From assembly GCF_003473485.1 (NCBI RefSeq), contig NC_053049.1, forward strand, positions 30,277,292 to 30,341,291: a stretch of 64,000 bases of DNA. The letters run 5' to 3'. Both the position numbers and the translations under genes were made by a program. Every line of letters begins with the position of its first letter. Position 1 is the first letter of the stretch. The notes below the pieces were generated by a model. That model saw only the letters and a program-made list of their open reading frames with translations, had not been told where the DNA came from and searched no databases. Positions 17,447 through 62,100 of this stretch are shown in pieces. This DNA comes from Medicago truncatula (lineage: Eukaryota; Streptophyta; Magnoliopsida; Fabales; Fabaceae).

Positions 17447-17624
17447 ATAACGTTTATCCTTTATGTTATAATTAGTTTTATGGATCTGATCACATAGATC
17501 TGTATATGATGACCACTTAGACTTATTTTGAACCCAATTTTTTCGATATTCCTCCTAATTTGATAGTGTTTGTTTGTTCAATAAAAGACGTGCCAATCTT
17601 ACTAATTTATTTATGCATTTACAG

Positions 17625-18382
17625 GTTGGGAATTTTATGCACTTTATAAGTCGATTTATAGTGGGCTTTATCATCGTTTTTTTCATGGTTTAGCATATCA
17701 GTGACACTAGCTATTGTTCTTTTGATTACTATTGCTGGAGGCCTTTATGCATATGTGAATTTTGGGCTTATTGCAAATGTTGGTAAATCATATCTGAGGG
17801 CGGGTGAAATCACTCAGCAGGTGAGATCATATTTTTGTTACACAACTTACATTTGAAAATTAAATTGATAAAGACTTGAGTATATTTTTGATTCAGTGTA
17901 GAAACCTATTTTTCCATTTTAAACTCTATACTTATATCTATTTTTTTGTTCATATTCTGTATATTTCCTTTGATTTGTTTCTATGATATTTGGAACATGG
18001 AAAAAAAACAAAAACAGAATGTAATCACAATGGCTAGTTTGTATTTTTGTTTATGGTTAAAGTTTGTTTATGCACGACCTATTACTAAATTTAACTAATA
18101 TTATACTCTTGTGGAGATATAAGGTGATAGGAAATGTGAGAGCTGTACAAACAATTGGAGGATAACAGTGAGCAGTGATATCATACAAAGTGGCTCTGAG
18201 GATCACATAAGAATGGTCGAAAAGCATGTTTAGCAAAGGGTCTAAGACTAGGATCTATGCACCGTGTCCTTTTTCTCTCATGGGATCTCCTTGTTTCGTT
18301 CACCGTCATTATTGTTCTCAAGAATGTCGCCAATGACGGAGTGGCTCTCACTACCATGCTCAATGTTAGCTATCTCCGGTCT
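17625..18382 (+). pseudogene. Two-exon fragment duplicated from the ABCB2-like transporter gene, broken
   Basis: Bases 17625-17820 and 18124-18382 match exons 4 and 5 of the intact ABCB gene (28831-29031 and 29195-29454). The intron between them is also similar (both contain tgcacgacctattactaaatt), so this is a DNA-level copy and not a retrocopy. It is dead. In exon 4' a codon that is TGG in the intact gene reads TAG, and a 5-bp deletion follows. In exon 5' GGAGGAGAA has become GGAGGATAA, a stop. The other ten exons are not found nearby. It lies in the same orientation about 8 kb upstream of the intact gene's first exon. Confidence 0.9.
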
Positions 18383-19406
18383 GTAAGCCTCTGTTTTCAT
18401 TGTTTTGAAATTGATACCAGACAGATAATACTGTTGATTGCATGACACAATCTTTTTTGAGTAATTTCTTGATATAATGATATGATTAAACGAAACTAGT
18501 TTAGAGAAACTTTTTCACAATCACTTGTAGAAGAAAAAGTTTGAATTATCTTTGAACGAATGCATGTTTTAAAATTTGTACCGGAGATCGAACAGGTGAG
18601 ACCTTAGGGTTTCAATCGATTCAGTTGGTTCAACTATGATTCAACTAGATAAAAAATATAAAAATTAAAATAAAAAACTAAAAAAAAATGCAACAAGAAC
18701 TGATTAAACCAACCACGGTTTATCTGGTTCAACAAACAAAGGTACATACATACAACTGAGATCAAACCAACTGGCGAATTTAACTAGCTGTTTCGGTTTG
18801 GTTTTTAAAACTTTTAATATAATATATCATATCAATATTGATCTATATCTCAAAAAGTAACTCTTATATTTAAACACCTCAGAATTTTAGACACTCATTT
18901 ACCATCTTATTTTCTCCATACCTCTCTTTTTCTATCACATTTATCACATCACTTTCTCTCAAGTTGTCTGACAACCATTTTTCCCTCAAAAAAAGAAAAT
19001 TCGTATCACAAATAATAACCAATGTTGAAGTTTTCTTAGTTGATTGACCAATTCATATTTTCAACCCCAAGCCTCTGAAAACCTTAACATGTTTCATTGA
19101 CATTGACATCTTAAGAAGAAAAGAGGATGTCGAGAGTGACAAACTTTCTACCTAGCTACTAGAACCCACAACAACATTAACAAATGCCCATGTCTCTATT
19201 TTTATCTCGTATAGGACGAGAGGCGTTTACTTACTGGTTTACAACCATGCATGTTATGACTTCATACATTATTTTAACTAATAATTAAACCAACTAACCT
19301 AGTCAATCAATTATAAACAATGTAGGAAGAACATGAGCCAGGTATGCTTATTTATTACCAATATCAGCAGGCAAATTTTTCATGCCAAAGAGGTGCAATT
19401 TCAAAA
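18383..19406. other. Intergenic and likely promoter of the ankyrin gene
   Basis: AT-rich non-coding sequence. Similarity to the ABCB intron 5 start fades out by about 18410. No gene or delimited repeat is seen. Confidence 0.4.
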
Positions 19407-25258: not shown

Positions 25259-28200
25259 ATGTCAAAACGTGCTTCAAGAGGAAAAAAGGTTCCATTGCTC
25301 AAGCTTTTCTCCTTTGCTGACTTCTATGATTATGTCTTGATGGCCGTTGGATCTGTTGGGGCATGCATTCATGGTGCATCTGTTCCTGTTTTCTTTATCT
25401 TCTTTGGGAAAATTATTAATGTCGTAGGTTTGGCTTACCTTTTTCCTAAAGAAGCTTCCCACCAAGTTGCCAAGGTTTGTACTTTTAAATAAGTTACAAA
25501 CTTTTATGTGTTGTCCTCTTCCCATGCATTTTCCACTAGGGAACCATGTTAATCTTTTTTACTCCCATGCAGTTAAATATTTACTACAAGATTAAGAGGG
25601 TGGATAATAGATTAAGTATGATATAACGTAAATAAAAGTATGATCGATAAATATGTAGCTATATTAGCCTCTAAAAAAATGTAGCTATATTATATATTTT
25701 TAAACAGTTGCGCATAGAGGATGTCGAGTTGACACCAAATTTAATGAGAGAGTTTTATCATACATTGCGGTCATGCTTGACTCGAGATATTAATCTATGC
25801 AGTTATATGTAGAGGAGATACCCAATTGATACAAAAATAAATTTTTAAGCATATAAATAATAAATTGTAAACTTTTATTCTATATTTCGTAAGAGGTGCC
25901 ACGAATATTAAAAAAGAATATATTAGAATAACATACATTAATTTGTTAGGATATCTTGCTAATGAGCGAAGATAAAAACTATCAACCTCCTTATCACTCA
26001 ACTTTTCTAGTAATATAATCAAATAAACCTTGTATATCCCTTTTTTTTTTTTTTTTTTTTCAGGAAGCCTTGTATATCCCTTTGAAAACATTATATATGA
26101 ACCTAAAAAATTAAAGATTTTTTGTTTATATATGATTAGGAATGATTTTTTTTTTCTACATGCTAATCATTACTTTTAATGTGAACGAATTGAATTTTTT
26201 TTGGTGGTCGGAGTTTGAACTCCGGACCTTGCATATATTATGCATTGTCCATATCAACTGAGCTAAGCTCACGAGGACCGTGAACTAATTGAATAATAAT
26301 GCAATAAAATATAAGTAATATAAAATACCTTAAAAAAAAGTAAGATAATATAAAAGATTATTGTTGTAATAATTTGTATAATTGCTCAATTTTGTATTTT
26401 TAAAATTGACATTAATTTATATTTGACAATTTTAGCATGAAATTTTTATTTTAATAATTTATAGTATTAAAAGATAAAATTAACTATGTAACAAAATTAC
26501 ATGTAATTTTAAAAGGATATTTTTATTAAGACTGGTGCTAGTCACACCCCAAAAAAACAAGTTACACCCAAATTTATTTAAAATTTTACAATAATACCAA
26601 AATTGCCCTCTTCATGTAAATTTCTAAAAACCCATCTTTTATGATCATTCTGAACCCTTACCCTCTTTCATCCACAAATCACCATAGATGTGCAACCAAG
26701 ATCTGAATCAACATCTTTTACTGTAAATTAAGTTTACGTGTATGTATATAAAAGGGGTTAGTGTAGTTTACGTATGTAGGTTAATGTAAATTCAAATTTA
26801 CGTATGTTCAATTTAGGTTAGTGTAAATTCAGTTTACTTACGTTCAATCTAGGTTAATGTAAATTAAGTTTACTTATGTTCAATTTAGGTTAATGTAAAT
26901 TCAGTTTACTTACGTTCAATCTAGGTTAATGTAAATTAAGTTTACTTATGTTCAATTTAGGTTAATGTAAATTCAGTTTACTTACGTTCAATCTAAGTTA
27001 ATGTAAATTAAATTTACTTATGTTCAATTTAGGTTAATGTAAATTTAGTTTACGTGTGTATATAGTATGTATATAAGAGGTTAGTGTAAATTCAGTTTAC
27101 TTACGTTTAATCTAGATTAATGTAAATTAAGTTTATTTACGTTCAATTTAGGTTATTTAGTTTACGTATGTATATAGTATGTATATAAGAGGTTACTGTA
27201 AATTCAGTTTACTTACGTTCAATCTAGGTTAATGTAAATTAAGTTTACTTATGTTCAATTTAGGTTAATGTAAATTTAGTTTACGTGTGTATATAGTATG
27301 TATATAAGAGGTTAGTGTAAATTCAGTTTACTTACGTTTAATCTAGGTTAATGTAAATTAAGTTTATTAACGTTCAATTTAGGTTATTTAGTTTAAGTAT
27401 GTATATAGTATGTATATAAGAGGTTAGTGTAAATTCAGTTTACTTACGTTCAATCTAGGTTAATGTAAATTAAGTTTACTTATGTTCAATTTAGGGGTAT
27501 ATTAATCATTCTGGGGTGTAACTTATTTTTTTTGGGGTGTGACTAGCACCAGTCTTTTATTAATATTGATTCTATCTCTCCCCTTCCATGTCTAAAGGTT
27601 TTTCACACTTTCACTTTTTTTTTACCGTTGTAACTAAATACAATAGATGTCCCAAAACGTCACATATCCTCCATTACTTCCAAAATATTTTCATGCAAAC
27701 TAACCCAATTTTTCAATCATAAGTATTCATTGAACTTTCTACTTCAGAAGAAAATGAACTTAAGTGATTTGATGGACTTGTAGGAGATACTTTTTGAGTT
27801 TTTACTGTATCGTTTTAATTTTAACGGATGTCCTTGAAGGAACACTTCCTTCTTATCTCGATTACAAATAACTTTACATTATACCCATTTACGGACATTC
27901 TTAATAAATATTTCATCTTTAACAATTATTTCCATCTTTTTGGCACATTAGAAGTCTTACGTATATCAACCATTACCACTTTATATAGGATTCATTTTCA
28001 AAATCATGACCTACATGAATTTCACTAAATAAAAGAGAATGCATTTGAAAAATTGTGTTAATAGTACTTTTCCTTCTTGTCTCTTCTTCACTATATGTAA
28101 ATTTAAACTAATTTTAATTGTATGCCTGATTGTGATTGTGCAGTATGCATTGGATTTTGTGTATCTAAGTATAATAATCTTGTTCTCCTCATGGGCAGGT

Positions 28201-31200
28201 ATGAATCTATATTATAAGACTTTAAATAGTTAGTATATTTGGTTACCAAAAAAGTTGAATTTGGATTTCCGACGTTAAGGATTCTACACATTTACACAAT
28301 TCTCACATCGGTGATCGTTGGATCAAGATCACATCGTTTATATTTAAAATTTGTTGTTTTATATTGAAAAAATTAAAATCTATATTAAAACCCAGACCGT
28401 TGATCTTGATCCAACAATAACTGATATAATGATTACGTGAATGTGTGATCCGTAAGGGAATTTAAACTCAAAAAAAAAAATATCAAAAAAAGTTAATTAC
28501 TACTATATATTTTCAGAGGTGGCTTGTTGGATGCATACTGGAGAACGTCAAGTAGCAAAGATGAGGATGGCATATTTAAGATCAATGTTGAATCAAGATA
28601 TAAGTCTTTTTGATACTGAGGGGTCCACTGGAGAGGTTATTTCTTCTATTACAAGTGACATCATTGTTGTTCAAGAAGCATTATCTGAGAAGGTATATGC
28701 ATGCATACATTTTAATTATGGCAAATTCAAATGCCAATGATCCACATTTTATTATAAGTGATGATTAAAACAAGCATTTGTGTTGTTGCAAGTAATCCAG
28801 TAAGTGAAACCAAATTTGATGCATTTACAGGTTGGGAACTTTATGCACTTTATAAGCCGATTTATAGCGGGCTTTATCATCGGTTTTTTAAGAGTTTGGC
28901 AGATCAGTTTAGTGACACTTGCTATTGTTCCTTTGATTGCTATTGCTGGAGGTCTTTATGCATATGTGACTTTTGGACTTATTGCAAAAGTTCGTAAATC
29001 GTATCTGCGGGCAGGTGAAATTGCTCAGGAGGTGAGATCATTTCATATTTTTATCACACAACTCACATTTGATAATTAATACAAGACTAAAATAATTATG
29101 GCTAGTTTGTATTTTTTAATTATGGCTAAAGTTTTGTTTTTGCACGACCTATTACTAAATTTTTATAAAATTTTACTCTTGGTGGATATATAAGGTGATA
29201 GGAAATGTTCGAACTGTACAAGCATTTGGAGGAGAACAAAGAGCAGTGATATCATACAAAGTGGCTCTAAGGAACACATATAAGAATGGTCGAAAAGCCG
29301 GTTTAGCAAAGGGTCTAGGACTAGGCTCTATGCATTGTGTTCTTTTTCTATCATGGGCTCTGCTTGTTTGGTTCACCAGTATTATTGTTCACAAGAACAT
29401 CGCCAATGGTGGAAAGGCTTTCGCAACCATGCTCAATGTGGTGATTTCTGGCCTGTAAGCCTTTGTTTTCACGGTTTTGAATGGATATTGTTTATACGGT
29501 GTAACATTTCAGTTGTTAACGTATCATTTTTCTAAAATTATGATGAATGATCTTGCTTCTCACTTATCAGGTCACTTGGGCAGGCAGCACCAGACGTTTC
29601 GGCCTTTATCAGAGCAAAGACAGCAGCTTATCCCATTTTTGAGATGATAGAAAGAGACATAGTTAGCAAAAATAGCTCAAAAAATGATCGAAAATTAAAA
29701 AAAATAGACGGTCACATACAATTTACTAATGTCTGTTTCAGTTACCCATCTCGCCCTGATGTTGTTATTTTCAACAATTTCTGTCTTGAGATTCCTTCAG
29801 GTAAAGTTGTGGCCATTGTTGGAGGGAGTGGTTCAGGAAAAAGCACGATTATATCGTTAATCGAGCGTTTCTATGAACCAATTTCTGGCCAAATTCTGTT
29901 AGACAGGAATGATATAAAGGAACTTGATCTGAAATGGCTTAGACATCAAATTGGACTAGTTAATCAAGAGCCTGCACTATTTGCTACAAGCATAAGGGAG
30001 AACATATTGTATGGTAAAAATGACGCCACTCCTGAAGAACTAAACCGTGCTTTGGAACTTTCTGATGCTCTTTCTTTCATCAACAATCTTCCTGATGGAT
30101 TAGATACTCAGGTAATAATGCATCAATAACATTTGAAAAATAGTGTGGTTATGATTGCGTAAGCGGCGTAACTGTCTTTGATATCTCACGACCATAACAT
30201 GATCATAACTATGACTATATCAGTCATATCCGACCATAGTTTTACACGATATTGGAGGTCTGAACATGACTGTTATTTTTATTTTTTTTAAGGAAACATG
30301 CCTGTTATTTAAAACCTTGATCATGTGTGAATTTCCACATTTCCATCATTTATTTTCTTGTTCCTTGTCTATAGAAAAATTTGCCCCGAAAACTAGAGGT
30401 AACCAAGGAAAATATTTTTAGACTAGAGTTAAATTATGTTATTCGTCCTTGTAAAATTCCTAAATTTTTCTTTTAGACCCTCACTTCTTTGGATTGAAAG
30501 TTTATAACATATGAATTATCTATGTATATTTTAAATAAATCTAAAATCATTTGATATGTCATTAAGGTGCGTCAATGTTATTGTATTAAGCTCTTATATT
30601 AAATAACATTAATCTTTATAGTTTATACATCTCAACGTCATACATATCAAACGATTTCATATATATCTAAAAATTTACAGAGAATTTATATGATACAATC
30701 TTTCGAAACAACTGAGTATATATCCTTTCAAGTGTTAGTTGCATCGGTAGAACTTATCAAAGACCTCAATGGATCTACTTCTTAGAAAGAGAAATTCTGA
30801 TTTTATCTAGCTCCCTAGTGACATCCTTGATACTCATTCTTTCTTTTGGAGACTCTTCTGTACAAGCAAGTCCAATATATGAGAGTTTTAGCAAGCACCG
30901 CTTCACGTCATTAGGATGCAAGTGACTTGATTCTCTTGGGAGTAGGGTTGAATCCACTCTCTCTAAAAGTTTATCTGGCAAGGAAACCTTGACAAACCAA
31001 TGGAGATTCATACCGTTTGTGAACATTTTATCTGTAGGTTTCCTTCCAGTTAGTATTTCCAGCACCAGGATTCCAAAGCTATACACATCACCTAGTGTTG
31101 ATACTTGACATCCCATTCCATATTCTGAAAATTATGTATTTAATACTTTTTTCTTTTATGGAATACATATAGAATTTACAAACATTTTAGAACCAAATTA

Positions 31201-34200
31201 TATAGATTCAAATGGTACCTGGAGGAGCATATCCAATAGTTCCCTTAATTCCAATTGTGCTAGTCTGTAGATCGGAGATGCCATTGACGGCACAGACAAG
31301 TTTTGCTAGTCCAAAATCACTAACACGAGCAACCATGTCATTGTCAAGAAGAATGTTATTTGGTTTTAAATCACAATGGATGATTGGCTGCTCAGATTCA
31401 CAGTGAATATAGTGTATTGCAGAAGCAACATCTATGATAATATTTAGTCTCTGGAGAAGGTTCAAACTTGGTTGATCATCAATTTCTGACTCGTGAGGAT
31501 ACAACCATTTCTCTAAGCTTCCGTTTTGCATGTACTCAAAAACCAATGCTTTGATTTCATTACCATTGAAATCCATGCTTGAGCAACATGTGAGAATCTT
31601 AACTAGGTTCCTGTGACGGATACATTTGAGCGCATTACACTCAGCAATGAAACTCGCATGAGCTCCCTTGATTTGAAGGTTCAAGACCTTTATAGCAACA
31701 ACTCTTCCTTCTGATTCAAGAATTCCTTTATATACAAATCCAAAACCACCAAATCCTATCAAGTTGTTTGAAGAGAATCCATTTGTTGCTTGGTGGAGCA
31801 TCTGGTACGAAACCTTCGGAAGATGATGCATTGTGGATGCCGAAGTGGAAGTTGTCAAGTTTGGTTTTTTCATCCAAAAGACTGAAAGTGAGAATGAAAA
31901 CACTAGAAAAAAGAAAACCGTAGTAATTGTTATTACTATTGTCTTCCAGGCCTGATCTGTTGTTTGTGTCTTATCTATGGCGGGGCACGGTGGTAGATGT
32001 AGCTCTGTGATACCCCCACAAAGGTCACTGTTGTTTTTCAATGATATTGCACTTACATTTCTAAAGACACCCTTTGTTGGCACTTTACCATCCAACCTAT
32101 TAAAAGAAATATTCAAGTATTGTAGAAAAGGGATACTCTCTAAATCTTGTGGAAATGATCCAGACAAGTTGTTTCGTGATAAATCTAAATACTGAAGGCC
32201 TTTCAATGATGCCAAAGAAGAAGGCATGGCTCCATGGAAGGAGTTACCTTGTAGGTTAAGGTATTCCAAGCTTATGCACTTCCCAATTTCTTCCGGAATT
32301 TCACCTGAAAGAACATTTTCAGAAGCATCCAACTTATCAATGCTTTTCAGCTTACCAATTTCAGAGGGAAGGCTTCCTTTAAATGAGTTGTGGGATAAGT
32401 TGAGTAACAACGACAAAGAGGGAAGACCAAAGAGTTCGAAAGGAATAGTTCCAATAAGATGGTTCTTTGAAAGGTCCAGGTACTGCAACATTTGGCAATT
32501 CCTAATACTAGGAGGAATGCTTCCTTCTAGCATGTTATTTGACAAATCAAGTTTAAACAACTTACTAAGGTTGCCAAGAGATGATGGAATTTCTGCTGAA
32601 AGTTTGTTTACATTCAGCGTCAGTGATTGTATCTTTTGAAGTTTTCCAAAAGAAGCTGGAATCGAGCCTGTCAAAAGGTTGAACTTCATGTTGATGCCAA
32701 TCAAGTTGATGATATTTCCTAGTCCTTCAGGAACAGTCCCTGTAATCTTATTGTGACTAATATCAAACTGGTTTAGTTGACTAGATAAGTTGGCTACAGA
32801 TTTAGGTAAAGAACCACCAAAGTTGTTCAGATTTAAATGCAACACTCGTAAGTTTGTGCAGTTTGTCAAAGATGTCAAGAAATCCAAGTCATGAGATGAA
32901 TTATTACCAAGATGATTGTTTCCCATAGCAACTGACCATACATCTTTGAGATATCCTATTCCGGTGGGAACTGGTCCGACAATGTTATTATACGGGATGT
33001 TAAATAACAACAAACGGGATGCATTGGATATGGACGATGGGATAGGACCCGAGATCTTATTCATACCAATGCCAAATACTTGGAGATTAGGGAGTGTGAG
33101 GAACATGTTTGAAGGTAGAGAGCCATTAAATTGGTTGATTCCAGCTGAGAATAAAGTGAGATATGACATGTTATAGAGTTTAGAAGGAAGCATACCAGAT
33201 AGTTTGTTGGTTGTAATAGAGATACGAGTCAAACTTTTAAGATTGCCTATCTCTTCAGGCACCTTTCCCTCTAAGTTGTTGAATCCCAAAATGAGAATAC
33301 TAAGTGATGAAAGATTTCCTATAAATGAAGGGATTTCTCCTGTCAAATTGTTCATACCAATAGATAGCACTTCTAGTTTAGTTAGAAAGCCAAGCTCTAA
33401 AGGTATTTTTCCAACAAGTTTGTTTCCTGTTAGGCTCAAGATCTTCAGTTCAGAACAATTAGACAAAACGGCGGGAATTTGACCTCTAAGTGTGTTATTG
33501 GTAAGATACAGGTCTTCTAGCCAGAACAACTGACCTAATTCTCGTGGGATTTCACCATAGAAGCTGTTGTTTTGAAGGTTGACATACCTCAGAAAGGTGA
33601 GGTTGCCAATCACAGGTGGTATAATCCCTTGTAAACCATACCCTTGTAGGTTCAAGGCAATCACCCTTTGATGCCTTGGGCTGCAGGTGACTCCATGCCA
33701 GTAGCAAAAATTAGTTGAACTATTCCAATAAGTCAAGATATGAAAAGGATCAACTACTGCATCTTTGAAACTTAGCAATGATAGTTGGTCTGTGTCATTT
33801 CCTAAGGCAATAACAGTATTCTTAGGTTGCAAAAATATGAGAAGGACAACATGTAGGCATGTGGAATGGATTTCACTGAAGAAATATGGAGAGAGAATCA
33901 TTTTGATAGTTTTGAAGAATCTAAATCAAATGAAAATTTGAGACATTCAAACTCTTCTATAGATATATGGTGTTATAATTTGGTTCATATATATATTCAT
34001 TCATCTTTTGTTGACTTTAAAAATTCAATTATTGCCTCTTAACCAAAAATATTTATTAGGAAATGGTGTTGAAAAAGAGTGTGGTGCTGATGTTTTGCGT
34101 GATAATTTTCTATGAAGCTGTTCCTGTCAAGAGCTTTCTGGAAGTGGACTTCTATATAAAATATCTCATTTTTTATAGTTAGAATTATTCTTCTATTATG

Positions 34201-37200
34201 AATGAAATCCCATACTGATTTGACACCAAATTCTATCTTTTATTTTTGCTCACTACTTTTCACTCAGCTTGAAAAGTGTTGCATATGTTAAAAACTTGTT
34301 AATCTTATGTTTTAGTTGAATCTCTCATGTGAACAAAGCCCTGAATACACTCTTTAAAATTTTACTGTTAGACCCTACAAAAAAAGAAATCTAACTTTCA
34401 TTCTCCACATATTTTCTGTTAGTAAGTTTAGTCTCTGTTGCCACCTCCCCTCAGACTAACCGTCCACATGTTATGTCCCGAGGCATTGTTGACTCATCAA
34501 AATACTAGAAGAAATTCTAAGTTCTAAGGGTCTGTATCTATGAAAACTTCAGTTTTAAAACTTAATTCCTGGGTGATAATGAACATTGAAACTATGCTAT
34601 ATTGTGACTAATAATAGGTGCATTACATAACATGTGATTGAAATAAGGTTTCAAAAATTTAAATTTTGCATTTGTTTCACATGTTGATACTAAATCTTTT
34701 GTAGGTTGGTGAGAGAGGAATACAATTATCTGGGGGACAAAAGCAGCGAATTGCAATATCTCGTGCTATAGTTAAAAATCCATCAATCCTTTTATTAGAT
34801 GAAGCAACTAGTGCTTTGGATGCCGAGTCTGAGAAAAGTGTACAAGAAGCTCTTGATCATGTCATGATTGGTAGAACAACTGTGATAGTTGCACACAGAC
34901 TTTCTACCATTAAGAATGCAGATATGATAGCTGTTGTTGAAGGAGGGAGCGTTGTGGAAACTGGAAATCACGAGGAGCTCATTTCCAATCCAAATAGTTT
35001 ATATTCATCTCTTGTTCAAGGTCAACCTTCTCCAGATCCTAGCTTGGGACAGTCATCAAGGTGCTTCATTCTCATCCATAATTATAATTAACATAATTGA
35101 CGTCAAAGTCCTAAGACAAAGGTGCGGTTGCATCAAGATTATGGTCGCGGAGATGTGACCTAAATGGTAGTTGCAAACATTTTTTTAAAGCCCCGACTAA
35201 AATTACTTCACCTTATCAAGATATTGCATTTGAAAAAGACTGATTGCATGACTCAAATTTGTATCTCTTAGTGCATGTTTGGATTGACTTATTTGAGTTG
35301 TGAAACTGTTTGAGAAAACTTAGGAATAGCCTATGACATGTCTTTGCATAAGCTTTTTTTAGCTTATTTCCATCATCCCTCTAGGATAGCTTATGAAAAC
35401 AACTAATACTTTATATGAAAATAGTTTGACTTTATTTTATCTTTTTTTATAGAAATAGCCTGTACATACGTAGTTATGTTATAAGTATTTATGCTATAAT
35501 TGCTTAATAATTAAGTTGTTTATCCATAGTCACAATTCAAAAAATTCCAAAACTCCATTTAAGACATAATTATTGAAAAATTTAATTTTTATTGGTTTAA
35601 AACCATTGCATATTCAGTAATTCAGGTGATTAACATAGATTATGATACAGTAAATTCATGCTTATGGCCATGGTTGAAATAGAGAGTTAAGGGAATTCAT
35701 TCACAATTCCTCCTATCAAACTTATGTATATACATGTTTTTAATTGTAGCTTAAAGAACTCAGCAGAAATATCCCATGCAGCAACTATTGGTGGTAGTTT
35801 TCATTCAGATAGAAGCTCTATTGGCCATGCACTTGCTGATGAACCAAGAAGTGTTGTAAAGCCAAGGCATGTTTCATTAATAAGATTATATTCAATGATT
35901 GGTCCTTATTGGTCTTATGGAGTTTTTGGAACCTTAGCTGCTTTTACTACTGGTGCTCTTATGCCACTTTTTGCTCTTGGAATATCGCATGCTCTTGTAT
36001 CGTATTATATGGATTGGGATAGCACATGCCATGAAGTGAAAAAAATTGCATTCCTCTTCTGTGGAGCAGCGATTGTAGCTATCACTGCTTATTCCATTGA
36101 ACATCTTTCTTTTGGAATCATGGGAGAACGACTTACCCTTCGTGTAAGAGGAATTATGCTTTCTGGTAAGTGTGATTACCTTGTTATCATACTTGTGTTT
36201 TTGGTATTTTAAGACATTTTCCTTTAAACCTTCTTTGTATTTTGGTCAGCGAAAACGTCTACTATGTTTTATATGCAAATTCGACCGCGGACCACTTTGA
36301 TAGGTGGTCCATTATAGGTTGATACTTGAAAATTGTTTGATATTCCAATGACGACAAACTTTACTTTTCGTTAGTAGAATCTTACTTCCTCCTTGCCTTC
36401 ATGACTATGGCGGCGTATGGTTCGACAAAATAGGGAAACACAAATATTTGTGTCTTAAAATTCACCTCATTTTTTTTTGTTTTTATTTTTTAACTGAGAC
36501 ACATCATATCATCGTTTCAGTCGTAAGAATGTGGAAGATCTCAGCTTCTATTTCAAAGTAGCGTCGACAATAAAGTTTCAGTGATTTTAGTATTAGTCCA
36601 TCGTGGACCACCTGACCACTATCAAAGTGGTCTACTTTAGAATTTGCCTCTTTTCACCAAATTATTTAACATTTTTAAGTATTGAAATAAGAGAAATGCT
36701 AATTGTTACCGAAAAGGAAGTGAAAGGTTGCATAGCTGAATATTGAATATATAGTACCTTAATATCATAGGATGAAGCTTGGTTATCTCTCTGTTACTTA
36801 ATTTCCTTTGTTCATCTATCTGCAGCTATTTTGAAGAATGAAATTGGTTGGTTTGATGATACAAGAAACACAAGTTCTATGCTTTCGTCGCGTTTAGAGA
36901 CTGATGCAACTTTGTTAAAAACTATAGTAGTCGACCGTTCTACAATTCTCTTGCAGAATGTTGGTCTGGTTGTTACTGCACTTGTCATTGCATTCATTTT
37001 GAACTGGAGGATAACACTTGTTGTCTTGGCCACATATCCTTTGATAATAAGTGGTCACATTGGTGAGGTAGCTTTCTCTTTCACACCATTTAAACATTAA
37101 GAAATTAGAAAATGGGTTAATTATATTATTAGTCTCTAATTATATTATTTATTTCAGAAACTTTTCATGCAAGGATTTGGTGGTAATCTAAGCAAAGCAT

Positions 37201-38881
37201 ATCTAAAAGCAAATATGTTAGCTGGGGAGGCTGTTAGTAATATAAGGACTGTGGCTGCATTCTGTGCTGAAGAAAAGGTTATTGATCTTTATGCTGATGA
37301 GCTTGTTGAGCCTTCCAAACGTTCATTCAAACGAGGCCAAATTGCTGGCATATTTTATGGCATTTCCCAGTTCTTTATTTTCTCATCTTACGGCTTAGCC
37401 TTGTGGTACAAGCTCTAGCTTCCTTAATTGTTCATTTACTATATTAATTTAAAGTATAAATGTCTGATCCCTCAGTTTTCCTTTCAATGTTGCACCGACA
37501 CTTTAAATTGAAGTGTCTGTTTGGTGCCCGACCCCTACTCAACACCGACACATGTGGCACTTGTTCACAAATAATCACCGGTGTTGACGTGTCAGTGTTA
37601 GTAATGAGACATATATATACGTTTTGCAGGTATGGATCTGTGTTGCTCGAAAAGGAGCTTGCTAGCTTTAAATCAATCATGAAGTCGTTTATGGTTTTAA
37701 TAGTAACAGCATTGGCTATGGGGGAGACTTTGGCACTTGCACCCGACCTTCTGAAAGGGAATCAAATGGTTTCGTCAATTTTTGACATGATAGATAGAAA
37801 GTCAGGAATAATACATGATGTTGGAGAAGAGTTGATGACAGTGGAAGGAATGATTGAGCTAAAAAGGATCAATTTTATCTATCCTTCAAGACCAAATGTC
37901 GTTATTTTTAAGGATTTCAATCTAATAGTGCCTTCAGGGAAGAGTCTTGCCTTGGTAGGGCACAGTGGTTCTGGTAAAAGCTCAATAATCTCCCTTATAC
38001 TCAGATTTTATGATCCAACGTCCGGGAAGGTGATGATTGATGGTAATTTGTTTCAACACTTTATGCTTATTAGCTTCTCTTATTCCATCATTAGTACATG
38101 ATAAATAGAACAGTGTAGGATTATCTTTCAATAAGTAAAATGCTCAAAGTTATACTCATGTGCATCCATTCTAGAAAAGTCGTATGCTACACGCGTGTGT
38201 AATTTCAATGAGCTATGTCGTTGCAAAGATCTCTAAAACCTTTATAATGCAGCTGCATAGTGCAATTTAGAACTATGGTGACCATAACTGTGAAACATTC
38301 TTTTAACAATGACTCATCAAATTTTAACAGGAAAAGATATCAAGAAAATGAATTTGAAATCCCTTAGGAAGCAAATTGGGCTAGTACAACAAGAACCAGC
38401 TCTATTTGCAACATCAATTTACAAAAACATTCTATATGGAAAAGAAGAAGCATCTGAATCAGAAGTGATTGAAGCAGCTAAACTAGCCGACGCTCATAAT
38501 TTCATTAGTGCACTTCCCGAAGGCTACTCAACCAAAGCCGGTGATAGAGGAGTTCTACTATCCGGTGGCCAAAAGCAAAGGGTGGCCATTGCAAGAGCTA
38601 TTTTAAGAAACCCTAAAATATTATTGCTTGATGAAGCAACAAGTGCACTAGATGTCGAATCGGAACGTGTTGTACAACAAGCTTTAGACAAGTTGATGCA
38701 AAACAGAACAACAATTATTGTGGCACATAGGCTGTCTACAATAAGAAATGCAGATCAAATAGCAGTTTTGCAGGATGGAAAGATCATTGAGCAAGGCAAT
38801 CATTCAAGTCTTTTTGAGAATACAGATGGAGCTTACTTCAAATTAGCCAGCCTACAACAAGAAACAGCTACATGTACATGA
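25259..38881 (+). CDS. ABCB2: ABCB-subfamily (P-glycoprotein type) full transporter, ABCB2-like, 12 exons
   Basis: Exons: 25259-25474, 28144-28198, 28517-28692, 28831-29031, 29195-29454, 29571-30111, 34705-35060, 35750-36165, 36826-37067, 37158-37405, 37630-38042, 38331-38881. All junctions are GT-AG and keep frame, giving 1224 residues in TMD1-NBD1-TMD2-NBD2 order. NBD1 has Walker [10 protein letters not shown] (about 387-395), signature LSGGQ (491-495) and Walker B ILLLDEAT (E516). NBD2 has [14 protein letters not shown] and ILLLDEAT, so both ATP sites look competent. Conserved blocks ([51 protein letters not shown]) match my memory of Arabidopsis ABCB2/ABCB10. It should be an ATP-driven plasma-membrane exporter; the substrate is not known. 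The linker between NBD1 and TMD2 is shorter and more diverged than usual. Intron 6 (4.6 kb) contains a complete receptor kinase gene on the other strand. Confidence 0.94.
26195..26279 (-). mobile_element. tRNA-type SINE (short family) with 14-bp target duplication
   Basis: Read on the minus strand it starts GGTCCTCGTGAGCTTAGCTCAG, with a tRNA A-box-like TAGCTCAGTTGA. It continues to a B-box-like GGAGTTCAAACTCC and ends in an A run (T run on plus, 26195-26202). Flanks GTGAACGAATTGAA and GTGAACTAATTGAA differ by one base, a retroposition target duplication. A related copy is at 58199-58286. It lies in ABCB intron 1. Confidence 0.85.
26530..27554. mobile_element. Mutator-type MITE filled by a minisatellite, in ABCB intron 1
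   Basis: The ends are inverted repeats GACTGGTGCTAGTCACACCCC and their complement, continuing to a shared aagttacaccc block (about 40 bp per arm). Identical 9-mers TTTTATTAA flank it (26521-26529 and 27555-27563), a Mutator-superfamily duplication. Most of the interior is the tandem array described separately. There is no coding capacity. Confidence 0.88.
26725..27500. repeat. 36/72-bp minisatellite array
   Basis: The unit is 36 bp (begins GTAAATTCAGTTTACTTACG) and alternates with a variant (GTAAATTAAGTTTACTTATG), giving a 72-bp dimer, exactly in register at 26823, 26895 and 26967. From about 27050 some units are interrupted by a gtatatagtatgtatataagagg insert that recurs four times, making a higher-order repeat. 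Each unit contains a near-palindrome GTAAA...TTTAC. Confidence 0.9.
28252..28470. repeat. Imperfect inverted repeat in ABCB intron 2
   Basis: The phrases gatcgttggatcaagatca (about 28314) and gatcttgatccaac (about 28403) are inverted around an AT core, with weaker outer similarity (tgaatttggatttccg versus gggaatttaaac). This is probably an old MITE. Confidence 0.4.
30775..33901 (-). CDS. LRR receptor-like kinase of subfamily XII (EFR/FLS2/Xa21 type), nested in an ABCB intron
   Basis: Exon 1 is 33901-31219 and exon 2 is 31124-30775. The 94-bp intron has a CCAG|GTACC donor and a TTTCAG acceptor, giving 1010 residues, a usual length for this group. Features in order: a hydrophobic N-terminal signal region (about 14-26); an LRRNT with CYWHGVTC (66-73); about 22 leucine-rich repeats with GxIP spacing (80-615); a CGG...PPC cap (628-639); a transmembrane helix (654-676); and a kinase domain with GFGGFG loop (716-721), Lys738, HCDLKPNN (842-849, catalytic Asp844) and SDFGLAK. 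Cys precedes the catalytic Asp, so this is a non-RD kinase, the class of plant immune receptors. The intron lies just before the YGMG block, as in EFR/Xa21 relatives. The ligand is unknown. Confidence 0.93.
33988..33996 (-). promoter_or_regulatory. Candidate TATA box of the nested receptor kinase gene
   Basis: On the minus strand a TATATATATG stretch lies about 90 bp upstream of the start codon, a suitable distance for a plant TATA box with a short leader. Confidence 0.45.
36275..36647. repeat. MITE-like inverted repeat in ABCB intron 8
   Basis: The ends carry gcaaattcgaccgcggaccactttgatagg and, inverted, ctatcaaagtggtctactttagaatttgc. The two arms match over about 35 bp. The core is non-coding and no clear target duplication is seen. 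Confidence 0.6.
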
Positions 38882-43505: not shown

Positions 43506-44663
43506 TCAAACCGTAACAGATTTATCTTTTTCCTCAGTCAAAACCTTAACAGATTTATCTTTTTCTTCGGTCAAAACCTTAACAGATATATCTTTTTCTT
43601 CAGTCAAAACCTTAACAGATATATCTTTTTCTTCAGTCAAAACCTTAACAGATTTACCCTCATCACCATGACCCTTTCCCACATTTTCACCCAGCTCCTT
43701 CTTGCACATTAAATCGACGAAAAAATCTGTCAAAACTTTCTCATAGCCCGGCATTTTAGCATACCCTGGAAAGTAATTAATATCAATAATAAGATACCGA
43801 TTACCATATCTAGAATCACGAATCACATCGAAATTAAACAAATTCAGCTTCATAGCACGCCTCAATCCACTAGCAATATCAACAATAAAAGCTTGCGGAG
43901 GCATCTCAGTAGTATCATCCAAACTCATCATCTTATAAAACTTTTCATCATCATCCACACTATCCCTATTTGCCAAATTCGACACCTGCGAAAACGACAA
44001 CAAATCCTCCGAAACACCCAACACCTTCTCCTCAGAAACATCCGGTAAAGACTTCCTCTTCACGCAACGAACATGATTACCAACAACATACACCTTAAAA
44101 ATCACCCCACCATGATTCACAAATTCCTGCAAAACAATTGGTGGTTTCAGCTTATTCAACGCCCCGTGGCTAAAAACCAACGCCATTTTATGCGATTTCG
44201 CGCTTCCATCGGCCACCAACGGCTTCGCTATCACCGGAAACTTTAAACTCTCCCAAGCCTGGCCATCAGAAAGAGTCTCTTTATCATAAATCACGATCTG
44301 TTTCGGGATCCCGAATGTTTCGCCGCCTTTTTCATCAACCCCAACCCTAACCCTAAGCTCAGAAACAACCTGAAGCATTGAAATTCGGTTATGAAGACGC
44401 TCAATCGCTTCCGGCGCGTCGAGAATAACAGCATTAGGGTTTCGAATTTGAAATTGTTGAAGCTGGCGTTTCCAATCGTCGCCGTAGAGTTTGTGGAGGA
44501 TGCAATCGAACGGTCCTTGATCGATTAAGGGTTTGGTTGAATCGATTTGGATGAGTTTAATTCCGCGTGATGAAGCTAGGGTTAAGAGTGAGTCGCGGAT
44601 GAAACTGTTTTGTTTCTTTGGTGCTAATGCGTAACCTATTACGCCGTGTTTCTTTTCAGCCAT
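43506..44663 (-). CDS. ITPK1: Inositol 1,3,4-trisphosphate 5/6-kinase (ITPK1-like) with a repeated C-terminal tail
   Basis: An intronless frame of 385 residues. The ATP-grasp fold is recognisable by [11 protein letters not shown] (8-18), [13 protein letters not shown] (85-97), [19 protein letters not shown] (142-160), [20 protein letters not shown] (176-195) and the Mg-binding [16 protein letters not shown] (293-308; Asp294, Asn296). The enzyme phosphorylates Ins(1,3,4)P3, and plant ITPK1 also acts on InsP6, in the cytosol and nucleus. I chose the ATG at 44663 ([14 protein letters not shown]) over the in-frame ATG 60 bases upstream because family N termini start close to VGYAL. Oddity: residues about 337-384 are four near-identical 11-residue copies of [11 protein letters not shown], coded by a 33-bp tandem, absent from the Arabidopsis enzyme as I recall it. 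Confidence 0.94.
43514..43654. repeat. 33-bp coding minisatellite at the 3' end of ITPK
   Basis: Four copies of a 33-bp unit (plus strand begins GTCAAAACCTTAACAGAT). The length is a multiple of three, so the frame is kept. Copies differ at single positions (ttatct/atatct, ctca/ttcg). Confidence 0.9.
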
Positions 44664-44846
44664 TGGATTGATTTGATCAAAATTCTTGTGATTGATTTCG
44701 TTTTTTTGTGAATGAATGAACAATCACATTAGAGTGGGGAAACCCTAATTTTGGATGTTTAGGGTTTCGATTTTGGGAATTGGGGAAAGAAGAAGAAGAA
44801 GAAGAAAGTAAAATTGGAGGGAGAGAGAGAAGGGTATGGGGGTGTG

Positions 44847-59182: not shown

Positions 59183-62100
59183 ATGGATACACCTCTCCCC
59201 AAACCCTCCTTCAACCCCAACAAGCATCTCAAAGAACAGTTACTTACTTACTTACCACTCTCTCTATCTTCATCTTTAATCATAATTATAATCGTAACAA
59301 TTACCAATGTTTCAATTTTTCATCGTTAATTAATTCTGTTAATTTTGCAGATTCGTTAGCAATTTGACCGGATCCTCTTTGTTCGAAATCGTGGCTCTTA
59401 CAGTAACTATCCCTGTAAGTGAATTCTCAATTATAATCTCAGCTTAATTATAACGTGAATTATGATCAATGCTTATTTTCTGTTCCTCTTAATAGATTTT
59501 GGTGCTTATTCGGCACTCTTTCACCTCAGTTCCTATAAATGGTTAGTCCCTTATAAAGCACTTTTTTAATTTTTTAATGAACAATTATTTTGGTTAGTTC
59601 ATGACACCCAAATCCAACATTTTTCATTTTGTTTTATGCTTAATTGTAACATTTAATTTTGAATTCTGCTTGGGGATTTTTGTGGGGGATAATAGCTTAT
59701 AGCTTACATGAAATAGGTTGACTTATTTTATCTTTTGTAACTTGTTTGTTTGGATAAACAACTTATTTGCAGCTTATAACATACTCCTTCCGTCCTAAAA
59801 TATAAGCAAAAAAATATCATTTTCTTTGTCTCAAAATATAAACAAAAAAGACCAACTTTTATGCTATTTTTATGTTTTTTCAAACAAATCATCTTTTCCA
59901 ATGTAAAATTAAATGCAAGTTGCATTTAATTTGTTCTCCTTTTTATTTTCTCCATAATTTTTAACCAATGAGAATTATTTTTACATCTTTCCATGAAACT
60001 TATTCCAAGGAGAACACAAAAAATTATACCTCAAATCACTAAGTGTTAGTTTTCTTAATAAGTGTGAATTAGTGTTTTTTGCTTATAAATCAGGACGGAG
60101 GGAGTAAGTGCTTATCATGATAAGAGCTTATGCAAGATTAATTGGGTGAAGTGGAGTGTGGTTTGTACACCAAAGGAGGAGGGTGGTTTGGGGGTGAGAG
60201 ATGTTAGGGTGGTTAATTGGAGTTTACTTGCGAAGTGGAAATGGAGACTAATTCAAGATGGGCATGCGCTTTGGAAAGATGTGTTGGTTGAGAAATATGG
60301 AAATTCTTGTGTTGGTTTGGTGGTGAGTGATGAGTATATGTGGCCGGCAAACGTCTCGAGGTGGTGGGGGGATTTAGTGAGGTTGGATGTGTCAAATTGG
60401 TTTAATTCCGAACTTACTAGAGAGGTTAGGAATGGTGTGAACACGAGTTTTTGGGATGTAGCTTGGAGGGGAGAGATTTCGTTCTGGGAGAAATACCCTA
60501 GACTCTTCTCGCTTTCTACCCAAAAAGAGGCGATGGTTGGAGACGTGGGGGCGATCAACTCAATGGATACCAATTGGACCTTTCTTTGGAGGCGCCCCCT
60601 TTTTGTTTGGGAGAATGAGTTACTGTCGGAATTATTAGAAGATTTGGAGAGTTTCAGAGGCTCTATAGAAGATGGTATTTGGTGGTGGAGATTGGAGGGT
60701 AACGGGGTGTTCTCAGTGAAATCTATGTATAAGAAGTTGGAGTTGTTGCTAGCGGAAACCACGGTCTCGGTTGAGCATAGGAGGGTGTTTACTCACATTT
60801 GGAAAAGCCCAGCTCCGTCAAAACTGGTTGTCTTTTCTTGGAAGTTGTTTCATGACAGGATTCCGACGAAAGTTAACCTTCGGCATAGGCAAGTCCTACC
60901 TCTGGACGATTCGGTGAATTGTGTTCTGTGTGAGGGGAATCCGGAGTCGGCAAGTCACTTTTCATTCAATGCTCCTTTGCTAAGGAGGGGTGGAATGGGG
61001 TGCTGAGGTGTTAGAGATGACCTTGGAGCTTCCGATCAATTTGTTTCTGCTGTGGGAGGATTGGAATGTGGCAGCAGGGAGTAATAAGATCCGTAAGGGA
61101 TTCCGGTTGATTTGGCACGCCGTAGTGTGGAATTTATGGAGGGTGAGAAATGACCGAATTTTCAAAAATGCGGTTTATCGGGTGGAGGATACGGTGGAGG
61201 CTGTGAAGGTTATGTCGTGGAGATGGTTTCTTAGCCGTTTGAAGGTGCCGGCGTGTTTGTTCTACGAGTGAAGTTGGAATCCAAAAGCGTGCCTCTTACG
61301 GTAATGAGGAGGTGTTCAGCGGTTTTAGCAGTAACAAGTTTGAGGCTGGGGTATGCTGTTTATATTGCGGTGACCCGTGCTGGTTTTGTGCAGTTTTGCA
61401 TATGGCAGCCTCATTATTTTGTTCCAGTGCTGATCTGTTTTTTGTTTTCCTGCTATTTGCGCTTTAGTTCCTGTTGTTTTCCACCTCTGTGTTGTGTTTA
61501 GTGTGTTTTTGGTGGTTTTGTGGTGGTTTGGGGATTTCTGTTATTATCTGAGCCCTTTGTAATTCTGTTTGTTTTCTAGCCGCGAGTTTTTTGTGTGCTT
61601 CTTGCACACACTTGTCGTGAATAAAATTTGCCGTTTCTAAAAAAATGATAAGAGCTTATGTATAAACTATTTCTATTGCAAAATATAAAATAAAGTTTCA
61701 ATTATTTTCATGTTAACTATAAGTGGTTTTCATAAGCTATTTTGGAGAGCTTATGAAAATAAGCTGAACGCAACTTATAATCATGTCATAAACTGTTTTC
61801 ATAAGTTCTCCCAAATAGTCTCACAAAACTTATGATAATAAATAAGCTACTCCAAACAGGCCCACACTGTATACATAAGCACTTAAATGATAAGCGTTTA
61901 TACTATAAACACTTAATTAAGTTGCTTACCCAAACAGAGCCTAAAGTCCTATTCTTCGCTCTTTTTACTTATAGGTGACTCCCTGAAGAAGAAAAACGAT
62001 GATCCACCATCTGAGCATAGGAGTTTCAAAGCTCACCTAGCTACATTGACTTTGGATTTTCTTGTCATCGTTGTTCCTATGCTCTTATTTTTCACTGTAA

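Follow-up and report, generated by a model that had tools for sequence, protein, structure and literature searches.

Here, we describe a nested pair of genes in Medicago truncatula, in which a complete leucine-rich repeat (LRR) receptor kinase gene lies antisense within intron 6 of a full-size ABCB (P-glycoprotein-type) transporter gene. The pair is contained in a stretch of 64,000 nucleotides (C8:30277292-30341291; hereafter the window), which we compared with a genome of 429,922,655 bases in 42 contigs. A DNA segment of about 3.9 kb, carrying the upstream region, two exons and intron of the kinase gene, sits antisense in an ABCB intron that is short elsewhere in the genome. We think it likely, with a probability of roughly 0.7, that this gene segment was captured at a mended break in an old ABCB intron, giving rise to two separately transcribed genes, each under constraint.

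A receptor kinase gene antisense in an ABCB intron

The host gene has the following structure, in window positions.

25259..38881, + strand: full-size ABCB transporter gene, 12 exons, 1224 amino acids (aa), from splicing, frame and match to AtABCB19/AtABCB1
25259-25474, + strand: ABCB exon 1
28144-28198, + strand: ABCB exon 2
28517-28692, + strand: ABCB exon 3
28831-29031, + strand: ABCB exon 4
29195-29454, + strand: ABCB exon 5
29571-30111, + strand: ABCB exon 6, with Walker A of the first nucleotide-binding domain (NBD1)
30112..34704, + strand: ABCB intron 6, 4593 bp, GT..AG, phase 0, between ...LDTQ and VGERG...
34705-35060, + strand: ABCB exon 7, with signature LSGGQ and Walker B
35750-36165, + strand: ABCB exon 8
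36826-37067, + strand: ABCB exon 9
37158-37405, + strand: ABCB exon 10
37630-38042, + strand: ABCB exon 11
38331-38881, + strand: ABCB exon 12

GT..AG borders mark all 11 introns, and no internal stop interrupts the 1224-aa spliced frame. The protein matches Arabidopsis ABCB19 over residues 7-1218 and ABCB1 over residues 11-1222, and transmembrane (TMD) and nucleotide-binding (NBD) domains follow one another as TMD-NBD-TMD-NBD in a single chain, the arrangement of a full-size transporter. The spliced translation reads GGSGSGKST in exon 6, and LSGGQ and ILLLDE in exon 7. We take these to be Walker A, the signature and Walker B, respectively, just as a preliminary description of this DNA had divided them between the two exons. 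Past the linker intron, the gene has four introns; as far as intron structure goes, this is compatible with the extra introns of ABCB2/10 in PMC5716013.

The nested gene is read from the other strand.

33901-31219, - strand: LRR receptor kinase exon 1 (frame, Pfam)
31125..31218, - strand: kinase intron, 94 bp, GT..AG, phase 1; the intron of the paralog has an identical site and phase
31124-30775, - strand: LRR receptor kinase exon 2, including the stop codon (frame, Pfam)
33973..34175, - strand: upstream (promoter) DNA that is also conserved in the closest kinase paralog (local alignment)

The coding part (30775-33901) lies entirely within intron 6 (30112-34704). Its product is exactly 1010 aa long and has LRRNT_2, LRR and protein kinase domains according to Pfam, along with a transmembrane-like stretch recognized by eye; HCD stands where HRD is expected, making the kinase non-RD. 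A stop-free run of 905 codons has a chance probability of about 4e-31 at the base composition of the window, so the frame is not a product of chance. The preliminary description had assigned 30112..34704 to an ABCB intron housing a complete 1010-residue non-RD LRR receptor kinase gene, on the opposite strand and with its own intron. The interval proves to be exactly intron 6, and frame, Pfam and HCD bear out the kinase. Both reading frames, of 1224 and 1010 aa, are intact as described, and we confirm that two intact protein-coding genes form a nested pair. As for the TATA-like promoter that had been proposed, the TATA label is a guess from sequence, but about 200 bp of upstream DNA (33973-34175) is conserved with the paralog.

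Like receptors of the FLS2/EFR/XA21 type, the nested kinase combines an LRRNT, many LRRs, a non-RD kinase and one intron in the kinase part. It shows all four of the features (non-RD HCD, LRRNT, LRR array, single kinase intron) that we take to mark LRR receptor kinase subfamily XII, to which these receptors presumably belong; this placement is by features, not by a tree. In a search with the kinase part only, BRI1 chains ranked first, followed by FLS2, an order that likewise comes from the search and not from a tree. The exon 1 protein matched 10 NCBIfam families, 10/10 of them under their cut-offs, and a scan of prokaryote genomes with the nested kinase gave 19 pattern matches, none of which was confirmed.

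The placement of intron 6 is itself ordinary; the kinase insert is exceptional. An ABCB paralog on C5 (12562537-12571160), in which 12/12 exons are matched and no stops occur, has an intron at the same place (12567423-12567611) that is only 189 bp long. ABCB loci at C4:39.39 Mb and C1:55.82 Mb are interrupted at the same residue, with gaps between matches of about 169 and 87 bp. No kinase match at E 1e-3 was found in these loci on C5, C4 and C1, nor in a decayed ABCB copy at C8:29.08 Mb. For ABCB1 genes, too, the literature gives an intron within a nucleotide-binding domain (PMC5716013). This intron 7 of angiosperm ABCB1, the longest of that gene, lies likewise in a nucleotide-binding domain, and the positions of its primers fall in the same interval as the host intron 6 (PMC5716013), suggesting that the two would be the same intron. 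One difference is that the two conserved motifs of ABCB1 intron 7 have no exact match in host intron 6. None was found in the C5 intron either, and the second motif has one reverse-strand match in the decayed C8:29.08 Mb copy. The available portion of PMC5716013 mentions no nested gene in ABCB1 intron 7.

Other repeats and a duplicate lie in or near the ABCB gene. Intron 1 contains an element (26528-27556) with terminal inverted repeats of about 43 bp (95% alike) and an internal minisatellite; by eye, it is bounded on both sides by the 9-bp flank TTTTATTAA, which we take to be a target duplication of Mutator size. About 10 kb upstream, at 17610-18409, exons 4-5 have a broken duplicate of about 85% identity; its frame is disrupted, and exon 6 finds no match there. 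Further such ABCB pieces occur at C4:54.69 Mb and C8:29.08 Mb. Finally, a repeat in intron 7 (35298-35468) is found again at window positions 61657-61826 and near ABCB sequences on C5 and at C4:54.69 Mb.

The inserted block and its empty site

Within intron 6, the kinase gene is part of a block with recognizable edges.

30368..30481, + strand: left intron flank, old ABCB intron sequence common to the empty site
30462..30481, + strand: left copy of a 20-nt direct repeat, 18/20 identical to the right copy
30482..34376, no strand assigned: inserted block of 3895 bp (one copy of the repeat counted in), which the decayed ABCB copy at C8:29.08 Mb lacks
30489..30713, no strand assigned: dispersed palindromic repeat resembling a miniature inverted-repeat transposable element (MITE), at the left edge of the block (genome matches)
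34357..34376, + strand: right copy of the 20-nt direct repeat, single at the empty site (C8:29080281-29080300)
34377..34704, + strand: right intron flank, old ABCB intron sequence common to the empty site

The empty site was found with the right flank, a genome search of which returned only the flank itself and C8:29080039-29080259 (2/2 candidates scored). It belongs to the decayed ABCB copy, which lies on the minus strand, 1.2 Mb from the window gene, and which has 3 stops in its exon-6 match, 2 in its exon-7 match and an intron 6 of 839 bp. The synonymous divergence computed for this copy was set aside, since it takes in a spurious match to exon 12. Window segments 30368-30476 and 34403-35114 align to this copy only 26 bp apart, versus 3926 bp in the window. 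These flank alignments score 87 (left) and 151 (right), as against maxima of 31 and 32 in 500 shuffles.

The two copies of the 20-nt repeat differ from each other at 2/20 sites, and from the single copy at the empty site at 6/20 and 5/20. What makes this repeat telling is its place at both edges of the block. The MITE-like repeat starts a few bases inside the left edge; of 59 match rows in a genome search (best 40 of 66 candidates), 57 concern this stretch (query 375-606) at places elsewhere in the genome, with some loci matched on both strands. An empty site in a related copy and a short duplication at the junction, as expected of filler-DNA capture, are both present.

Origin of the segment and constraint on both genes

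A genome search with the kinase gave 61 match rows (best 40 of 128 candidates). The closest kinase among the matches listed lies about 753 kb away, at C8:31063976-31067330, with a DNA identity of 82% over the main piece and 75% over the last piece. Identity in the other long matches listed is 64-71%, and most of them lie on C5, C6 and C1; those that are more similar (up to 88%) are only short pieces. The C8:31063976-31067330 paralog is intact and codes for 1020 aa; the site and phase of its intron agree with those of the nested kinase. About 200 bp of upstream DNA is common to both genes (score 47, with 36 as the highest of 100 dinucleotide shuffles), lying 71 bp from the nested ATG versus 829 bp from that of the paralog. 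Their downstream DNA shows no homology (score 26 versus a maximum of 34 in 100 shuffles). The conserved stretch is about 760 bp farther from the ATG in C8:31054000-31063999, upstream of 31063976, which suggests an insertion in the paralog. Because the intron was kept and the upstream DNA is common to both, what moved was DNA with its upstream region, not mRNA.

A retrocopy of the kinase was rejected on these same grounds, the retained intron and the upstream DNA common with the paralog. A local origin also fails, since the window contains no second copy at E 1e-3. Nor is the nest common to the paralog, around which no ABCB match occurs in 20 kb (C8:31054000-31073999); by eye, its neighbours resemble a receptor-like cytoplasmic kinase and a nucleobase transporter. 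In alignable intron flanks, the distance between host and empty copy is 0.228 and 0.253. Since the synonymous divergence (dS) between the two kinases, 0.549, exceeds both values, a direct copy of the paralog locus is doubtful. There is only a hint that the donor was lost or moved; dS and flank distance differ in kind, and the flanks were picked for alignability.

How might the segment have entered? We propose DNA-based gene movement, in which the segment was probably filler, copied or captured during the mending of a staggered double-strand break. The break may have been tied to the MITE-like repeat at the block edge, and the 20-nt direct repeat would be the duplicated target. Wicker, Buchmann and Keller reportedly described, in 2010, how non-collinear plant genes are inserted when double-strand breaks are repaired with filler DNA. 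One documented way for plant genes to move is that a fragment bearing a gene serves as filler while a transposable element (TE) inserts (PMC3445842), and the features in common with our case are DNA-based gene movement, a TE-like repeat at one edge and a duplicated target around the insert (PMC3445842). The present case differs in that a complete, constrained gene lies within the intron of another gene, and in that the donor locus was not found. We offer filler-DNA capture as a mechanism, not as class membership.

Substitution patterns suggest that both genes have been kept under purifying selection. For the nested kinase and its paralog (NG86), nonsynonymous divergence (dN) is 0.146 and dS 0.549, a ratio of 0.265. 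By part, dN/dS is 0.225 for the LRRs, 0.247 for the kinase, 0.483 for the signal/LRRNT part and 0.547 for the juxtamembrane/transmembrane part. With 7 of 18 other kinase loci (L003-L020) as outgroups, one of which (L013) has one stop, 81 silent and 97 amino-acid changes were placed on the nested branch, 70 and 77 on the paralog branch, and 243 were left unplaced. On these comparisons the nested kinase does not appear clearly relaxed, with no clear excess of amino-acid change. For the host and its C5 paralog, dN/dS is 0.140 over 1198 codons. Lineage-specific amino-acid changes number 14 in the host and 15 in the C5 paralog with C4 as outgroup (439 comparable codons of the 1198 mapped to C5), and 6 and 13 with C1 as outgroup (351 codons), indirectly suggesting that the host gene is without sign of decay. 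Intact frames and signs of constraint are found in both members of the pair. The earlier suggestion that both genes may be active gains indirect support from these values, namely the dN/dS of 0.265 and 0.14, the branch ratios of 97:81 versus 77:70 and the host changes of 14 versus 15. With selection on both genes, splicing of the ABCB transcript would presumably skip over the kinase gene, whose own transcription would start at its own promoter. Each gene most likely has a promoter of its own, the 4.6-kb intron simply being spliced out, and a special regulatory circuit is not required.

Several caveats weigh against this reading of two constrained genes joined by capture. A donor locus was looked for and not found, the closest kinase among the matches listed being 82% alike, with a dS of 0.549. 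Constraint is averaged since the split from the paralog and may predate the insertion, and so is not proof that the gene works at its present site. Taken alone, the 20-nt repeat is only moderately unlikely, its score being reached by 8/970 random pairs of noncoding window segments and by 2/1000 shuffles. A duplication of 20 nt is long for a DNA transposon, and no target duplication can be defined for the MITE-like copy. Lastly, decay has affected the empty copy too, and exact loss of the DNA between direct repeats would leave the same picture there.

Alternative readings and significance

That last caveat leads to a reading in which the nesting is old and the paralogs lost the block, the C8:29.08 Mb copy via deletion between direct repeats. 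Such a deletion leaves exactly one repeat copy, as seen there. However, the C5, C4 and C1 loci also lack a kinase match, so several losses would be required, and the repeat copies are closer to each other (2/20) than to the empty site (6 and 5/20), although 20 sites are few; we regard an old nest as quite unlikely. It is also conceivable, though improbable, that retroposition or capture by a transposon (Helitron, Pack-MULE or LINE) brought the kinase into the intron. The direct repeats and the MITE-like repeat at one edge would fit, as would a 16-nt inverted pair (15/16) at 30498-30513 and 34282-34297, 16 and 79 bp inside the edges. This pair, however, does not lie at the ends, and the intron contains 28 such pairs in all; a duplication of 20 nt corresponds to no familiar target size of a DNA transposon; the kinase intron and the upstream DNA common with the paralog were kept; the left junction has, by eye, no poly-A/T tract; and the right flank matches only itself and the empty copy. 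A further reading, which we judge very improbable indeed, is that the kinase separates two genes for half-transporters, or the parts of a broken transporter, and that no RNA joins exon 6 to exon 7. In its favour are an intron about 24 times that of the C5 paralog (4593 versus 189 bp) and the end of exons 1-6 inside NBD1. The latter cuts both ways, as exons 1-6 by themselves would terminate within a nucleotide-binding domain. Against a split stand the 11/11 GT..AG introns with one continuous frame, the collinear ABCB19 match over residues 7-1218, the host dN/dS of 0.14 and the lack of any rate excess, host and C5 changes being 11 versus 11 through exon 6 and 3 versus 4 from exon 7 (439 codons).

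The nest might also act as a regulatory switch, kept by selection, in which induction of the kinase shuts down ABCB through the collision of convergent polymerases, retention of the intron or small RNAs. Antisense nesting speaks for this, and interference has been reported for intronic and nested genes (PMC3192792) and for nested genes of Drosophila (as told in PMC8467205). Yet there is no coupling signal in the sequence, and the kinase frame is fully intronic, leaving the mature coding sequences without overlap. Pairing of the kinase mRNA would therefore be confined to ABCB pre-mRNA and the excised intron; mature ABCB mRNA would be out of its reach, unless the kinase mRNA extends at its 3′ end past 30111. 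As the coding parts of the mRNAs do not overlap, antisense action would be limited to polymerase collision, pre-mRNA pairing or the excised intron. On balance, a switch seems unlikely. Likewise doubtful is the idea that the captured kinase is a conditional brake, selected since insertion, whereby immune or symbiotic induction lowers the amount of full-length ABCB mRNA by way of convergent transcription or of small RNAs from the intron.

Elsewhere in the window, 43506-44723 is an inositol 1,3,4-trisphosphate 5/6-kinase gene (Pfam), whose C-terminal end carries four tandem copies of a 10-residue unit. A frame at 60089-61006 has a reverse-transcriptase zinc-binding domain (zf-RVT) and is probably a retroelement remnant.

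Nested genes are a known arrangement, and a regulatory link between the members of this pair remains a candidate only. As in other nested protein-coding genes, a single intron of the external gene houses the whole internal gene. Among simple nested pairs, 220/296 in human and 193/248 in mouse have their members on opposite strands, and internal genes often arise via duplication and insertion into introns (PMC8467205). Expression divergence in human and mouse pairs is slightly, but not significantly, above that of other genes, and it is higher in Drosophila (PMC8467205). The Medicago pair resembles most human and mouse simple pairs in its opposite strands and differs in being from a plant, whereas those in PMC8467205 are animal. 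Titles and abstract openings in the literature turned up neither a plant survey of nested genes nor this pair, which is not proof of its being unpublished.

The value of this locus is that it presents a plant nested pair whose insertion is legible almost to the base, with a complete constrained gene that has kept its upstream region and intron, a decayed relative in which the site is empty, and a junction that is duplicated. The pair also provides a natural test of whether a long antisense intronic gene disturbs its host, for which the short-intron ABCB paralog on C5 and the C8 kinase paralog, which lies outside any ABCB gene, are built-in controls.

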